Positions 51,471 to 59,946 of a stretch of 64,000 nt of DNA are shown piece after piece; position 1 is the stretch's first letter, and each line of letters begins with the position of its first letter. The DNA is from an uncultured Spirochaetota bacterium. Lineage in GTDB: Bacteria; Spirochaetota; UBA4802; UBA5550. The notes beneath the pieces were generated by a model. It worked only from the letters and a program-made list of their open reading frames with translations. It made no database searches and had not been told where the DNA came from. The position numbers and the translations under genes are program-made. The DNA lies in assembly GCA_937872225.1 (NCBI GenBank), contig CALMRZ010000052.1, forward strand, positions 1 to 64,000. Reading direction: 5' to 3'.

Positions 51471-52754
51471 TTATTCCACAGCGTGGGCATCGCCTTCATG
51501 ATGGTGGTGGCTGTCAGCATGAGGGAAGAGTGGCGTATATTTGGCAAACCACATGTAAATCATTGCCATGATGGCGAGGCCGCCCAGCATTATGAACCAT
51601 TCCTGGATCGTCGGATTATATCCAATAAAACCCTTCCAGGGGAAATTGGGCACTGACGAACCGTTCAGGACAACATGGAGCTTGGTGGTGACCATGGCCA
51701 TGACGCCGCTGATTATGCCGTAGCGGTACATCTTCTCGTCCTCGCGGAATTTCGGCACCAAGAGAAGCACGACGGCGCCGGCGATGAAGATGAACTCGAG
51801 TATTATCATCCAGAGGCCGTAGTAGCCGCCCAGGTTTGAAATATAGGTCCTGTCAAAGAGGGGAACCCATTTCTTTGCCATGAGGATAACATCGGCCAAA
51901 CGGGCTATCAAATACACAACGAACATGATGCCGGAAACCTTGGCAATCGACATGAACGTTTCCCTGGGAAGCACTTCCTTTTTCATGACCTTGCCGGCCA
52001 CATACGCGCACAGCGTCATGAAGGAGGTGCCGCCCGCGGTCGCCAGAATGATGACCGTGAAAAAATAAAAATGATGTCCGCGAAACCACGAGGCCTTGCC
52101 GTACATGATGTCCCACATTCCGCCTCCCAGGGATCCCTGGTGAAAGAACGACAGGAAGGTTCCGGCGGCCGCGAAGATCCACATCAGCCGGTGGAGATAA
52201 TGCCCGATATAATGAAGGACCGGTATCGCATCTAAAATCTTGTGCTTCAGCACCACCGGCGTCAATTCAACGCAGAGGATCAGGAAGTAAAAGGTGAGGC
52301 ACCACGCTACTTCGGTAAGCATCGAAGCGGGCATCAGGCCGGGTCCCCAGTTCGGGTACGTATAGATGAACCACGCCCTGATCGGCTGGCCGATGTCAAA
52401 AACAAGGAAGACAAAGGTGAAAAGGTAGCAGAGGAAGCCGATCAGCACCGTTGAGCTGATCATCGGCTCCAGCTTCTCGTTCCTGAAGACATAGAGCAGA
52501 AAACCGGTCGTAAAGGCGCCGCCTCCCAGACCGACCAGCCCCAGGTCCCCGATGATCCACTGGCCGAAAGGATACATGTTGCTCATGTCGGTGTAGCCCA
52601 ATCCCCAGAAAAGGATCTGAATGGCGAAGATGAAGAATCCGGCCGTAAAGAACAGCATGACGTACAGGGCAATCTTCACGTTCCTGGAATATCCGTTCCA
52701 TTCCTTTTTGACGAACTCGATGTATTGTTTGATATAACCTATTAGTTTATTCAC
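51471..52754 (-). CDS. NrfD/PsrC-family quinone-binding membrane subunit (QrcD-like)
   Basis: A 427-residue integral membrane protein of the NrfD/PsrC family with about eight to ten hydrophobic segments; it should exchange electrons or protons with menaquinone. MVLFTAG-like first helix, LGLGYTDMSNMYPFG, FLVFDIGQPIRAWF and FFHQGSLGGGMW are visible. The C-terminus is His-rich (HADSHHHHEGDAHAVE). It is last in the operon; the Fe-S subunit ends 30 nt upstream. Confidence 0.85.
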   Translation of the reverse strand: MNKLIGYIKQYIEFVKKEWNGYSRNVKIALYVMLFFTAGFFIFAIQILFWGLGYTDMSNMYPFGQWIIGDLGLVGLGGGAFTTGFLLYVFRNEKLEPMISSTVLIGFLCYLFTFVFLVFDIGQPIRAWFIYTYPNWGPGLMPASMLTEVAWCLTFYFLILCVELTPVVLKHKILDAIPVLHYIGHYLHRLMWIFAAAGTFLSFFHQGSLGGGMWDIMYGKASWFRGHHFYFFTVIILATAGGTSFMTLCAYVAGKVMKKEVLPRETFMSIAKVSGIMFVVYLIARLADVILMAKKWVPLFDRTYISNLGGYYGLWMIILEFIFIAGAVVLLLVPKFREDEKMYRYGIISGVMAMVTTKLHVVLNGSSVPNFPWKGFIGYNPTIQEWFIMLGGLAIMAMIYMWFAKYTPLFPHADSHHHHEGDAHAVE

Positions 52755-52784
52755 AGTGCTTCTCCTTTACCAGGATATCGGAGT

Positions 52785-53600
52785 CTATTTAAATTTCATC
52801 ATTTCCTTGATCCAGGCCTTGCTGGTGAGATAGTAGACCTTGGGATTCGGGAATTGCTTAACATGCATCATCTTTTCTTTCGTCTTCTCATCCTTGTCGT
52901 CGATGGTGTGGACGAGACGGAACTTGCGTTTCTTTTCCTTTTCAAGGAGCTGGCTGATCTCGGAGTTCGAATCATTGAGGTCGCCGAAAACCATCGCCTT
53001 GGTCGGGCAAGACGCCACGCAGGCCGGGGTATAGGTCACGGCGTTGATGTCAAGCTCGCCCTTCGCCACGGCCTTGTCGCGCTCGCGTTTCCAGATGTGG
53101 GTGCAGAACTGGCACTTGACAATGGTACCGCGGGAAGCGACAGACACGTCGGTATTGAGCGACTTCTCGAAGGAACCGTCGTATCTCGGCTTCCACCAGT
53201 TGAAGGCCCGCGCCTCGTAGGGGCATGACGCCTGGCAGTACCGGCAGCCGATGCACCGGGACCAGACCTGGCTGACAACACCGTCATCGCCGACATCGGT
53301 CGCCACGACGGGACACACAGACACGCAGGGCGGTTTCGGGTTCTTGGGATCGTTCCCTTCGCACTGCTGGCACATTTTCGGAATATAGCAGACTTCCACA
53401 TTGGGATACTTGGCGTCCCGGTCGTTGGTGACCTTCATCAGATCGAGGAATTGAACGCGCTTGGGCAGGTCGGAATCATCCTCGAAAACCGGCATGTTAT
53501 TCTCCTGAGAACAGGCGATGGCGCAGGTGCCGCAGCCCGTGCACTTGTCCAGATCTATTGCCATTCCCCATCTTCTTTTCATTTTCATATTGGTATCCAC
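52785..53600 (-). CDS. Four-cluster Fe-S electron-transfer subunit (QrcC-like)
   Basis: A 271-residue ferredoxin-like protein of the DmsB/NrfC type. Four Cys groups are visible: CTGCGTCAIACSQ, CQQCEGNDPKNPKPPCVSVC, CIGCRYCQASCPYEARAF, and CQFCTH with CVASCPTKA. It should relay electrons between the molybdopterin-fold protein and the NrfD subunit. It lies 3 nt after the molybdopterin-fold gene stop. Confidence 0.9.
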   Translation of the reverse strand: MDTNMKMKRRWGMAIDLDKCTGCGTCAIACSQENNMPVFEDDSDLPKRVQFLDLMKVTNDRDAKYPNVEVCYIPKMCQQCEGNDPKNPKPPCVSVCPVVATDVGDDGVVSQVWSRCIGCRYCQASCPYEARAFNWWKPRYDGSFEKSLNTDVSVASRGTIVKCQFCTHIWKRERDKAVAKGELDINAVTYTPACVASCPTKAMVFGDLNDSNSEISQLLEKEKKRKFRLVHTIDDKDEKTKEKMMHVKQFPNPKVYYLTSKAWIKEMMKFK

Positions 53601-53603
53601 CTC

Positions 53604-55571
53604 TTAGCTGATTTTGACCCTGGTGAGCCACCAGTTCGCGGCCCCGGTCAGGGGATCGATGTCATTCGCCATGATTTCCTTGGGATTCACGCCTTTCTTT
53701 CTGGCATACTTGGTGTACGCCCTGTGGCCGAATCCCAGGGGAATCGCTATCGCATCCGGCGCCACGGTGTCGGTGAGGTGGGCCCTGACGCTGCCGATCT
53801 CGCCCCGCGATGATTCAATATCAATCCGTTCGCCTTCGCTGACGCCGTTCTTGTCAGCAGTTTCACGGTTTATCTGCACCCAGAGCTTGCCCAGCGAGAA
53901 GGTTTTGTCGTCGATGGCCTTGAGCACATAGGGAAAAGCCATTCCGTCGCCGTCGCCCACGAAGGTAAGCTCCGTCGGGACCAGGGTGAGGGGGAACTTC
54001 TCCGTTGTCTTGAGGGTTTTTTCCAGGGCGGCGAGGGTGTCTTTGAGGACTTTGGCATTGTAATTCACCGCGCCGGCGCCGACGGCCCCGCCGTAAACCT
54101 TGACCAGGTCCACGTAGCTGTTCCATTTGAAGTTGTCCCTGGCGCCGTCGACCTTCTGGGCCAGTTTGATGATGGCGTCGCCCGCATGAATCGCTTTTTC
54201 ATACGCCTTCACCGGGGCCGCGCCGGCCGCGCTCTCGGACTCGAGGAAGCTCAGTGAAGGGAAAATGTAATCCGCGTACATTGCCGAATCGTTCAGGAGA
54301 GGCATGATGCCAACGACAAAGGCGCTCTCCATCTTGGCTGCCAGGTCCGCGCCGTATACGCTCTTGTAAACAGGATCAGAACCGTTTATAAAGAGCATTT
54401 CAAACTTGCCGTTCTTGATGAAATCGTCAAGACCGGCGTACTTTTTAGCGTCTTTCAGGACGGCCGCCGCGTCCGCCGAAAGGGCCGGCTCGCCCAGGCC
54501 CTGGCTCTTTTTCAGCTGGGCCCCGCGGCTGCCGACCATCGCGTTCAGCGCGTACACCGCCATAAGTTCCGCCGAGGAGGAGGAAACGCCCGCGCCTCCG
54601 CGGCCGCCGACCGCTATCGGGTTCCTGGCGCCGGCAAAGGCGTTTGCCACATCTTCGATCTGCTTTGCCTTGAGGCCGGTGAGGGTTGCGACCTTGTCCG
54701 GGGTATACTGGTCAACTATGGCCATCCAGTCGCCGCCGCCGGCCGCGCGTCCCTTCTTTTTAAGGCAGTTGGCTATGCCCATCGCCAGGATCAGTTCGGT
54801 GCCCGGCTTGATCGGGAGCCACTGGTCAGCCATGGATGCCGTCCGGGTGCAGACCGCGTCGGCCTGTACCAGCCTGGTTCCTTTCTGTTTCATGTCCACC
54901 AGGGCCTTGTTCATGGCGCAGGCCGCTCCCCAGCCTTCAAAGAGGCGGGCGCCGAAGCTCAACACATAGTCAGCATTGCTGAAATCGTAATCAACATAAC
55001 CTCCCAGCGCCGACGTCGAAAGAGCGGTCAGCGAAGGCTCGAAAAAGGCGTTGCCGCTGCCGGCTGACTTGATCAGACGGCCAAGGAGCGCGGCGGAAAG
55101 GTCGTCGTTCTTGCTGATGCCGGCTATGAGACCGCCCTTCTTCGCGCCGATCAGCTTGTTCATCTGTTTCGATACGGCCGTCAGGGCCTCTTCCCATGAG
55201 ACTTTTTCGAAGGCGGAGGGTTTCACCGTTCCCTTCTTGCCGGTGCGCTTCAGCGGCGCATCGATACGCTCGGAGTGGTAGAGCAGCTGGAGGGCGTTCT
55301 GGCTGAAGGGGCACCCGCTGTTGGATGACTCGATCTTCACCGCCCGGTCGCCGATCATGCGTATCGACATCTCGCATTTTTCACGGCAGGCCTCGCAGAT
55401 GGTCTTCAGATATGCCTCACTGCCGGAGGCCGGAACGAGCTGGTCCTGGGTCCATTCGACCAGCCACTGCAGGCCGAGGAAGGGGGCCCCGGAGAACACA
55501 TATCCTGTCAGGCCGCCGACGACTGCGCCGCCGCCCATCATCAAGAAATCTTTTCTTTCTATCTTTTTCAT
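53604..55571 (-). CDS. Molybdopterin-oxidoreductase-fold subunit (QrcB-like)
   Basis: A 655-residue periplasmic protein of the molybdopterin oxidoreductase superfamily. The N-terminus (ERKDFLMMGGGAVVGG) is Tat-like but has RK, not RR. The Fe-S motif is C59-x2-C62-x3-C66 with C87. The domain layout (about 100-500 NAD-like halves, 520-650 barrel with YTKYARKKG near the end) fits. It has no visible conserved Cys or Sec at the usual Mo ligand position, as in QrcB, which binds no molybdenum cofactor, so it may be structural and electron-relaying. The cytochrome gene precedes it by 42 nt. Confidence 0.8.
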   Translation of the reverse strand: MKKIERKDFLMMGGGAVVGGLTGYVFSGAPFLGLQWLVEWTQDQLVPASGSEAYLKTICEACREKCEMSIRMIGDRAVKIESSNSGCPFSQNALQLLYHSERIDAPLKRTGKKGTVKPSAFEKVSWEEALTAVSKQMNKLIGAKKGGLIAGISKNDDLSAALLGRLIKSAGSGNAFFEPSLTALSTSALGGYVDYDFSNADYVLSFGARLFEGWGAACAMNKALVDMKQKGTRLVQADAVCTRTASMADQWLPIKPGTELILAMGIANCLKKKGRAAGGGDWMAIVDQYTPDKVATLTGLKAKQIEDVANAFAGARNPIAVGGRGGAGVSSSSAELMAVYALNAMVGSRGAQLKKSQGLGEPALSADAAAVLKDAKKYAGLDDFIKNGKFEMLFINGSDPVYKSVYGADLAAKMESAFVVGIMPLLNDSAMYADYIFPSLSFLESESAAGAAPVKAYEKAIHAGDAIIKLAQKVDGARDNFKWNSYVDLVKVYGGAVGAGAVNYNAKVLKDTLAALEKTLKTTEKFPLTLVPTELTFVGDGDGMAFPYVLKAIDDKTFSLGKLWVQINRETADKNGVSEGERIDIESSRGEIGSVRAHLTDTVAPDAIAIPLGFGHRAYTKYARKKGVNPKEIMANDIDPLTGAANWWLTRVKIS

Positions 55572-55613
55572 GGATTATTTCTCTCCTCTGACAAGTTTCA
55601 TGTTACCGGGACA

Positions 55614-56189
55614 TCAGTCGTGGCAGACCGCGCAGGCGTTGCTGATCTGAAGCGCGGTATGGCAATCCATACATTGTCCCATGAGCATCTTTCCGCTCAG
55701 CATCTTCGTATTGGTGGTGCTCGCCTTGTCTCCATGACATGAACCGCAGCGCGCCCTCATCCTGCCGTCTTCGTATTTCGCCGTCATGACAACCTTGTGG
55801 CTGAAGTACACCAGGTCAGGCTGCTTGGCATAGGAGCCCCACGGCTTGTCCGTGCTCTTGTATTTGTTCAGCATCGGCTTTCTGAGGGCGGTTTCCGGGC
55901 CGGCGTTCTTGGTTGGACCGTTCGGATCGTGGCACGACGTGCATTCCGCGACGGTCGGGATGCCTTTGAACCTGCCATTGTCATTATACCCGTGACATGT
56001 CTCGCAGTCATCCTTCGACATGCCGTTTGCCGGCATATACTTGGTCAGGTGGGTCTGGTGGTTAAAGGGTACTGATTTCTCAGGATGGTTTGCCATTACA
56101 TAATTGCATCCCATCTGGGAAATTACATAAGCAAAATAGAAAACAACAATAAAGGGGATTCCAATAAGAAGTATTGTACGTTTCACCAA
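55614..56189 (-). CDS. Pentahaem cytochrome c with membrane anchor (QrcA-like)
   Basis: A 191-residue protein with one N-terminal hydrophobic helix (anchor, no lipobox) and five CXXCH motifs: CETCH, CTSCH, CGSCH, CMDCH and CAVCH. His residues for bis-His ligation are present (for example FNHQTHLTKY, YFSHK). QrcA of sulfate reducers has six haems, so this has one fewer motif. It would take electrons from periplasmic c-type cytochromes or hydrogenase/formate dehydrogenase partners. First gene of the operon. Confidence 0.85.
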   Translation of the reverse strand: MVKRTILLIGIPFIVVFYFAYVISQMGCNYVMANHPEKSVPFNHQTHLTKYMPANGMSKDDCETCHGYNDNGRFKGIPTVAECTSCHDPNGPTKNAGPETALRKPMLNKYKSTDKPWGSYAKQPDLVYFSHKVVMTAKYEDGRMRARCGSCHGDKASTTNTKMLSGKMLMGQCMDCHTALQISNACAVCHD

Positions 56190-57981: not shown

Positions 57982-59946
57982 CTATTTTTTCTCTTCCGTC
58001 GACATGTCGTATTCCTCGTCCTCTTCCCACACGAAGGTCCCCTTTCCGCTCTTGTTTTTGTCCGGGCAGACCTTCATGATATATTTTTTCTCGTTGGGCC
58101 AGAATGCGTTCTTCTGGCTGTGGTAATAGCTGTCCAGGTCGCTGACGTATTTCATGCCGTCGTTCCAGATCTTGGTGCCCCGGCCGTCGCGCTCGCCGTT
58201 CTTGAACCGGCCGATGTAGCGGGAGCTGTCGATGTAGAACCAGACGCCCTTGCCGTGTATCTTTCCTTCCTTGAACTCGCCCACGTATTTGTCTCCGGAG
58301 GGAAGTATGAGGGAGCCCTGCCCGTTCTGCCTGTCGTTCTCGAACTGGCCGATGTACTTGGCGCCGAACCATTCCGACTTCTTTCCCCATATGTAGGTGC
58401 CGAAGCCGTGCTTCTGCCCGTTCTTCCAGTCGCCGGTATAGGAGTCGCCGTCGCCGACGGTCAGCTTTTTTTCCTTCATCATCACGCCGTAGCTCCAGTT
58501 CGCGTAATACTTGCCCACGATGTTGCCCTTCTCGTCGTAGACGAACAGCGAGCCGTCGCCGTGCATCTTGCCGTCGAAGAACTGGCCGATGTATTTCGAC
58601 TTAAGCCTGCCCTCTTTGTCGTAGAGGAGAAGCGTGCCGTCGCCGTTGGGCTTGCCGTCGATGACCTGGCCGAGATAATGCGACACCAGGACCCCGTTGT
58701 CGTCATAGATGAGTATCGAGGCCTCGCCGGTCTCCTTGTCGTTGAGGTACATTCCCAGGTACTTGCGGACTATCTTGCCCTTCTCGTTGTAGACAAATTC
58801 CGAGCCCTGGCCGTCGCGCATGCCGTTGCTGAATTCGCCCACGTATTTCTTTATGAGCCTGCCGTTCTCGTCATAGGTGTAGAGGGTGCCGTCGCCGTGC
58901 CTGAGGCCGTCCTTGAACTTGCCCTCGTACTTGCTCGTCATCACGCCCCTGTCGTTATAGGCAACGAGAACGCCGTCGCCCTCGGGCTTGCCGTTCCTGA
59001 AGGTGCCCGTATATTCCTCTATTATAGCGCCGTCCTTGTTGTACTTGACCAGTTTCCCTTCGCCGTCCGGTTTCCCGTTGCGGAAATTGCCGGTGTACTT
59101 GCCGGTCATCTTCCCGTTCTTGTCATAGGTGACGAGGGTACCCTCGCCCTCGGGCTTGCCGTCCTTCACCTTGCCGGTGTACTTGCTGATCACGTTCCCG
59201 TCCCTGTCGTAGGTAAGAATGGTGGCCTCGCCGTCGATGGTGCCGTTGAGATACTTGCCGGTGATCTTGCTCACCAGTCTCCCGTCCTTGTCGTAGGCAT
59301 AGACGTCGACCAGGCCGCTGGGCCTTCCCTCGTAGAAGGTGCCGACGATCTTGGAAACCATTTTTCCGTCCTTGTCGTAGGTAATGAGGGTCCCCTTGCC
59401 GTCGGGCTTGCCGTTTTCAAAACTGCCCGTATACTCGCTCCTGAGGACGCCCCGCTCGTCATAGGTCTTCAGGGTGCCTTCGCCGTGGGGCCTGTTGTTC
59501 CGGAAGGTGCCGGTATAGGTGCTGGCCACCTTGCCGTTTTCATGGTAGGTGACCAGGGTCCCCCGGTCGAAATCGCCGTTTTTATCAAGGGTGCCGGTAT
59601 ACTTGCTGATGAGCCTGCCCTTCGAGTCAAATTCAGAAACGACCACTTCCCCCACCGGCTCGCCGTTTACGAAGGCGCCTTCTATGGTCTTGACGACATT
59701 GCCGTTTTTATCCAGTATATAAAGGATACCCTTGCCGTGGGGCTTGCCCTTCTTTGTTTCGCCCACGTACCTGCCCCCCTTCCAGGGAATGCCTTTTTCG
59801 GTCCCGGCTTCCTTTTTCTCTATCCGGGACTCACGTTCTTCAACGGGCTTCCGTTCCTGTTCCGTGCGCAGCTGTTTTTTTGCGGTATCGCAGGCCATGG
59901 TAATGCCTATCAGGAAGGCAATGGCTATAATTGCAGTTCTTTTCAT
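57982..59946 (-). CDS. Giant MORN-like-repeat lipoprotein
   Basis: A 654-residue lipoprotein (lipobox IGITMAC, C19) made of fifteen tandem 28-residue MORN-like units (residues 61-480, consensus TGTFRNGKPDGEGTLVTYDK then GKMVSKY) followed by four classic 23-residue MORN repeats (about 500-610). MORN repeats bind lipids or scaffold proteins in eukaryotes and bacteria. The repeats are long-period and not identical, so they are old. It is the first gene of a pair with the GGDEF-like sensor, so it probably presents an outer-surface scaffold to that sensor. Confidence 0.85.
   Translation of the reverse strand: MKRTAIIAIAFLIGITMACDTAKKQLRTEQERKPVEERESRIEKKEAGTEKGIPWKGGRYVGETKKGKPHGKGILYILDKNGNVVKTIEGAFVNGEPVGEVVVSEFDSKGRLISKYTGTLDKNGDFDRGTLVTYHENGKVASTYTGTFRNNRPHGEGTLKTYDERGVLRSEYTGSFENGKPDGKGTLITYDKDGKMVSKIVGTFYEGRPSGLVDVYAYDKDGRLVSKITGKYLNGTIDGEATILTYDRDGNVISKYTGKVKDGKPEGEGTLVTYDKNGKMTGKYTGNFRNGKPDGEGKLVKYNKDGAIIEEYTGTFRNGKPEGDGVLVAYNDRGVMTSKYEGKFKDGLRHGDGTLYTYDENGRLIKKYVGEFSNGMRDGQGSEFVYNEKGKIVRKYLGMYLNDKETGEASILIYDDNGVLVSHYLGQVIDGKPNGDGTLLLYDKEGRLKSKYIGQFFDGKMHGDGSLFVYDEKGNIVGKYYANWSYGVMMKEKKLTVGDGDSYTGDWKNGQKHGFGTYIWGKKSEWFGAKYIGQFENDRQNGQGSLILPSGDKYVGEFKEGKIHGKGVWFYIDSSRYIGRFKNGERDGRGTKIWNDGMKYVSDLDSYYHSQKNAFWPNEKKYIMKVCPDKNKSGKGTFVWEEDEEYDMSTEEKK
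58507..59766 (-). repeat. Fifteen tandem 84-bp coding repeats
   Basis: Inside the lipoprotein gene, fifteen 84-bp units encode 28-residue repeats with shared positions (Gly at 2 and 11 or 13, NGKP-type turn, Tyr or Phe at 18, Gly at 22). The nucleotide sequences have diverged, so the array is not a recent expansion. Confidence 0.8.

Follow-up and report, generated by a model that had tools for sequence, protein, structure and literature searches.

The window analysed here is a 64,000-nucleotide stretch of a contig (CALMRZ010000052.1) from a metagenome-assembled genome (MAG) of an uncultured Spirochaetota bacterium. The initial annotation had presumed a spirochaete host, and the closest named records are indeed MAGs deposited as Spirochaetes or Spirochaetae bacterium. 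Between positions 51471 and 56189, the minus strand carries an intact operon of the qrcABCD type, with four genes in the order A, B, C, D. The qrcA-like gene (55614..56189) encodes a pentahaem cytochrome c of 191 amino acids (aa) with an N-terminal membrane anchor, read from a TTG start codon; a GTG one codon on (56186) is equally placed behind an AAGGAG box and is an equally likely start. It is followed on the same strand by the qrcB-like gene (53604..55571), encoding a 655-aa protein with a Tat signal and a molybdopterin-oxidoreductase (MopB) fold without a Mo ligand, the qrcC-like gene (52785..53600), encoding a 271-aa Fe-S protein with four clusters, and the qrcD-like gene (51471..52754), encoding a 427-aa quinone-reactive membrane subunit of the NrfD/PsrC family. 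The genes are tightly spaced, with intergenic gaps of 42 (A/B), 3 (B/C) and 30 (C/D) bases. This succession of multihaem cytochrome, MopB-like protein, Fe-S protein and NrfD protein is the four-gene layout of Qrc, a complex known mainly from sulfate-reducing bacteria; it had been recognized in the initial annotation, the coordinates of which proved exact, and the order is kept in the relatives examined. A further feature noted at that stage, the RK in place of RR in the signal of B, is present (MKKIERKDFL). However, relatives of the same order (L076, L078, L083) carry RR, so it means little and was dropped as a real difference from Qrc. Upstream of qrcA, a minus-strand gene (57985-59946) encodes a 654-aa protein with many MORN-like repeats, which stays beside qrc in most relatives of the same genus (L064, L065, L067, L068).

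The four proteins were compared with the NCBIfam profiles NF041781 (QrcA), NF041783 (QrcB), NF041782 (QrcC) and NF041784 (QrcD), the curated cut-offs of which are 180, 440, 400 and 570, respectively. The Qrc model was the best NCBIfam match for each subunit, and for B, C and D it led by a wide margin. Subunit A scored 86.9 bits (runner-up TmcA, 35.4), B 280.9 bits over residues 4-655 (runner-up PhsA, 155.9; ArrA, 101), C 269.9 bits (runner-up DsrO, 139.7) and D 277.2 bits (runner-up HybB, 102.6). None of the four reached its curated equivalog cut-off. D also matched the Pfam NrfD family (31.6 bits, cut-off 25.8). In the aligned homologues of A, B and D, the Qrc models were likewise the best match in 17 of 17. 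Three sets of controls indicate how these scores are to be read. In an alternative complex III (ACIII) locus from a Planctomyces plasmid (L178), ActA gave 68 bits on QrcA and ActB gave 96 on QrcB and 215 on QrcC, while ActC had no match to QrcD. An Arr-type operon from Cereibacter gave 197 on QrcB vs. 438 on ArrA, 179 on QrcC, and no QrcD match for its NrfD protein; a PhsA control gave 162 on QrcB vs. 1379 on its own model. HybB-like membrane subunits of hydrogenases and formate dehydrogenases from relatives scored 71-83 bits on QrcD and 274-411 on HybB. Since ActC and the Arr-type NrfD protein do not match QrcD at all, and the HybB-like subunits reach only these low values, it is D that separates the families best by profile score; the assignment of B is also clear, whereas A and C could not settle the matter by themselves.

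Scans of viral records with C and D returned no Desulfobacterota Qrc sequence, and plasmid records gave only relatives of PhsA, Arr-type enzymes, ACIII, HybB and DsrO. In a small tree, which had several long outgroup branches and no true Qrc reference, the spirochaete D proteins formed one group (93/93 support), a result that adds little to the profile scores. A series of Bacteroidota matches (L014-L033) was first read as ActB. The two inspected (L017, L020) have a NuoG-like N-terminus beside an NADH-dehydrogenase-like gene and, from these features, look like cytosolic formate dehydrogenases; the series was left out as ACIII references, yet was included in the alignment for the structure model of B.

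Residue conservation in C and D was compared with what is known for Nitratidesulfovibrio vulgaris. Mutation of QrcC Y113 and of QrcD D70, Y110, S138 or Y150 abolishes Qrc function in this organism, and a QrcD R358A mutant retains growth and about half of the activity (PMC13059093). Sixteen cysteines of the spirochaete C protein, enough for four clusters, are invariant in 17 of 17 homologues, as is Tyr121 in its CRYC motif in 17 homologues. Tyr121 is likely the equivalent of Tyr113 of N. vulgaris QrcC, an assignment made from its described position between two Cys ligands and not from an alignment. For D, the list of QrcD residues of Calisto and Pereira (PMC8076601) was used. Up to position 202, 12 of the 16 N. 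vulgaris residues match D of the window at offsets of 0 and +6, vs. six matches for the best of 300 shuffled sequences. Asp70, Tyr110, Ser144 and Tyr156 of the window protein correspond to D70, Y110, S138 and Y150 and are invariant in 17 homologues, as are D120, E148, E163, H188, S202, H205 and S208. Hence, the counterparts of all five residues on which Qrc function depends in N. vulgaris, the QrcC tyrosine being placed by its motif, are invariant across 17 spirochaete homologues. Agreement at a fixed offset is poor for the C-terminal half of D, where R358 has no clear counterpart. An AlphaFold model of D, built from five sequences, was not used (mean pLDDT 52.9).

One order accounts for every homologue of B at E < 1e-30: 34 of its 46 genomes have one, vs. 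none of 347 genomes sampled from the rest of the phylum. A periplasmic hydrogenase or formate dehydrogenase had been predicted to accompany the complex, and both were located. The genome of the window encodes an exported [NiFe] hydrogenase large subunit, a small subunit with a Tat signal, a lipoprotein-like tetrahaem cytochrome (L088:11640-12050; Pfam Cytochrom_CIII, 39.8 bits) and a maturation protease; neither a C-terminal membrane helix on the small subunit nor a cytochrome b was found at this hydrogenase. It also encodes an exported selenocysteine-containing FdhA, truncated by the contig end. In three sister species, where FdhB could be read, the operon consists of FdhA (with selenocysteine), FdhB, MobA and FdhE, with FdhD adjoining on the opposite strand, and contains no gamma subunit. 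Thus, no quinone-reactive subunit accompanies either enzyme. A single family search found no [FeFe] hydrogenase. Two other hydrogenase-related loci occur in the same MAG (G000). One (L090, G000:C49) combines NuoCD-like hydrogenase-type, antiporter-like and Fe-S subunits with a formate-dehydrogenase-like MopB protein, and looks like a membrane complex of the formate hydrogenlyase type; the other (L089:7036-12039, G000:C61) is a cytosolic-type [NiFe] hydrogenase with NuoEF- and NuoG-like diaphorase subunits, of the bidirectional NAD-linked type.

Across the 46 genomes of the order, the Tat-exported hydrogenase and Qrc occur together in 30, Qrc alone in four, the hydrogenase alone in two and neither in 10 (Fisher p = 1.3e-5, a value that ignores shared ancestry). 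FdhA is present in three of the four Qrc-only genomes, the fourth being 71% complete, and completeness is 73% for both hydrogenase-only genomes. The genes are also physically associated in two relatives: G174 has a single cluster of cytochrome, protease, hydrogenase and qrcABCD genes, and in G112 the hydrogenase adjoins qrc. Where Qrc is present, the operons examined for hydrogenase and formate dehydrogenase contain no membrane subunit of the HybB/NrfD type. In two genomes without Qrc, G020 and G154 (L160, L162, L163, L164), genes for an Fe-S protein and for HybB lie within the hydrogenase operon, and a HybB/HmcC-like subunit is encoded after a formate dehydrogenase. There are exceptions to this pattern. 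In G087 and G170 (L157, L158), which lack Qrc, the FdhAB genes, without an in-frame stop and so without selenocysteine, have no membrane subunit next to them, and a second FdhAB locus in each of G020 and G154 also lacks one. Two groups of neighbouring genes were considered and set aside, namely proteins of about 800 aa near qrc in relatives, which are methionine-synthase-like and not dehydrogenases, and multi-transmembrane proteins near some fdh genes, which look like AI-2E-type transporters and not NrfD.

We conclude that the operon very probably encodes a divergent periplasmic cytochrome c:quinone oxidoreductase of the Qrc type, a pentahaem variant belonging to one order of Spirochaetota. 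This reading draws on the operon itself, the profiles, residue conservation, co-distribution, gene clustering and the absence of membrane subunits from the partner enzymes; the electron path, its direction and electrogenicity are inferred from N. vulgaris (PMC6303296, PMC13059093). By this analogy, the soluble Tat-exported [NiFe] hydrogenase and the exported FdhAB would pass electrons to a small tetrahaem cytochrome of the class III type, from which QrcA, with five haems, would take them. QrcC would relay them through its four Fe-S clusters to QrcD, which would reduce quinone at the periplasmic face with protons drawn from the cytoplasm, making turnover electrogenic. QrcB would perform no Mo chemistry and would be a structural relic of a molybdoenzyme. 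The link between periplasmic hydrogen or formate oxidation and the quinone pool, proposed in the initial annotation, is thus supported by profiles, residues and partners, with menaquinone as a predicted identity of the quinone only.

The genes for making that quinone are sparsely represented. In single family searches of the genome, neither MqnA/MqnD (PF02621) nor a MenD above cut-off was found, and a MenA-like prenyltransferase (L149:7533-8495) was the only menaquinone-pathway enzyme seen. The quinone may be made by another route or salvaged, or the genes may have been missed in an incomplete genome. As for electron acceptors, a quinol-dependent NrfHA nitrite reductase is present. In addition, a 3.2-kb contig of the same MAG (L156, G000:C42, 1-3232) carries dsrA (541 bits, cut-off 393) divergent from dsrM (375 bits, cut-off 300) and a partial dsrK. 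By tetranucleotide pattern, this contig agrees with the genome (r = 0.888), yet its G+C content is higher (62.7%), and both sulfite metabolism in the spirochaete and contamination are possible. Published studies describe dsr genes in Spirochaetota, with MAGs from Zodletone spring among the carriers (PMC10591310, PMC9040765).

The same complex may instead run mainly in reverse, with quinol oxidation via QrcD, C and A driving H2 or formate production during fermentative or syntrophic growth, at the cost of proton motive force. This differs from the preferred reading in direction only and would need identical genes and partners, and Qrc is needed for syntrophic growth of Desulfovibrio (PMC6303296). 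Although direction cannot be told from sequence, the NrfHA nitrite reductase provides an oxidant for quinol, and we regard predominantly reversed operation as a real possibility, if one short of even.

The cytochrome bears on a second alternative. Subunit A is the sole multihaem open reading frame of the window and has five CXXCH motifs, as the initial annotation had counted, and not the six haem motifs of QrcA. Five CXXCH motifs are found in 19 of 20 QrcA-like homologues, and the twentieth has CX3CH replacing one; a non-canonical sixth haem in A is possible. Five CXXCH motifs are also present in ActA of ACIII, for which the QrcA model gives 68 bits, and a phmmer search with A retrieves ActA chains from ACIII. 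The operon could accordingly be taken for a reduced ACIII, a quinol:cytochrome c oxidoreductase with an ActA-like pentahaem cytochrome. However, B and C are separate genes and not a fused ActB, and neither a second NrfD protein nor ActD or ActE lies nearby at the window locus, as judged against the L178 control. Further, D reaches 277 bits on a QrcD model that ActC does not match, and B reaches 281 on QrcB vs. 96 for ActB. A reduced ACIII is therefore largely refuted and highly improbable. QrcA-like pentahaem paralogues are encoded with a second formate dehydrogenase at L171:2329-3718 and L172:11288-11830, one of them 60% identical to QrcA of the window; these may serve as alternative cytochrome subunits or act as dedicated acceptors.

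Subunit B was compared in an alignment that included FdhA, PhsA and a further three MopB proteins encoded by the same genome. The column facing the FdhA selenocysteine is variable in B and has no conserved Cys, Sec, Ser or Asp; ahead of the fourth cysteine, B is shorter than catalytic enzymes by about seven residues, and the K/R that normally comes after this cysteine is missing. A clear Mo ligand, or affiliation with the polysulfide or arsenate reductases, had been named beforehand as evidence against a Qrc assignment. The alignment gave no such ligand, and B prefers QrcB (281) to PhsA (156) and ArrA (101), while the PhsA and ArrA controls prefer their own models. B is thus predicted to be a QrcB-like subunit without Mo cofactor. 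The four cysteines (Cys 59, 62, 66 and 87) are present in the window protein with shortened spacing, and most spirochaete homologues retain some of them. Because several homologues (L068, L073, L074, L080, L081, L083) have lost at least one, the alignment suggests that an Fe-S cluster in B may be dispensable. The AlphaFold model of B (mean pLDDT 65.6, with poorly predicted ends) has a MopB fold, the best structural match being 6cz7_A, an ArrA (Z 22.0, rmsd 4.7 A over 466 residues), followed by PsrA (Z 18.9) and subunit B of ACIII (Z 17.1-18.4); as modelled, this fold is common to these families and so cannot tell them apart. That the operon encodes a catalytically active molybdoenzyme of the Psr/Phs/Arr group, supplemented by a cytochrome, as the fold, the ArrA match and the four N-terminal cysteines of the window copy might suggest, is hardly credible given the missing Mo ligand, the shortened cluster loop without the K/R conserved beside the cluster at bis-PGD sites, the cysteines lost in several relatives and the 125-bit lead of the QrcB profile.

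In comparison with QrcABCD of N. vulgaris and other Desulfobacterota, the spirochaete complex is alike in gene order, subunit types, a MopB protein without Mo ligand, a four-cluster C, the essential QrcC and QrcD residues, soluble hydrogenase and formate dehydrogenase partners and a tetrahaem cytochrome. It differs in having five haem motifs instead of six, in the scores of all subunits below the curated cut-offs, in its spirochaete host and in the Fe-S cysteines, some of which most B homologues keep. By all signs that could be tested on sequence, it appears to work like Qrc, while it fails the curated cut-offs and the six-haem feature. ACIII (ActABCDEF) shares a pentahaem A subunit, a MopB protein without Mo, an Fe-S domain and an NrfD subunit, but in ACIII the MopB and Fe-S parts are fused in ActB, and additional subunits occur, among them a second NrfD protein. 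HybB, of the Hyd-2 type hydrogenase (HybOABC), belongs to the family nearest to D after QrcD; that system differs in carrying its own hydrogenase and no multihaem cytochrome, and is found in Qrc-less genomes within this order.

Calisto and Pereira found QrcD only in Deltaproteobacteria (PMC8076601). Since Qrc has been reported in other phyla, its occurrence outside Desulfobacterota is not new: putative QrcABCD has been described in the FCB phyla Blakebacterota, largely without DsrABC, and Orphanbacterota (PMC9727166), and likewise in an acidobacterial MAG (PMC10564751). These resemble the present case in having a host outside Desulfobacterota, in phyla other than this one, and are compared here from the reports and not by sequence. 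A search of open literature, which takes in few subscription journals, turned up no account of Qrc in spirochaetes.

A more far-reaching interpretation, which we consider doubtful, is that the spirochaete complexes represent an early-branching Qrc lineage, pentahaem like ActA, in which B is losing its Fe-S cluster and a shared quinone port replaces the private HybB/NrfD subunits of hydrogenase and formate dehydrogenase; in some members, QrcA paralogues encoded together with a second formate dehydrogenase (L171) would extend this system. The finding that the operon is very probably of the Qrc type extends Qrc-based energy conservation into spirochaetes. In addition, the eroding Fe-S motif of B suggests a route from a catalytic to a structural subunit. 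The order also offers a natural comparison between genomes with Qrc and soluble enzymes and two Qrc-less relatives with membrane subunits of their own, and because it holds both kinds of relatives, the shared-port and private-port designs can be tested by comparison.
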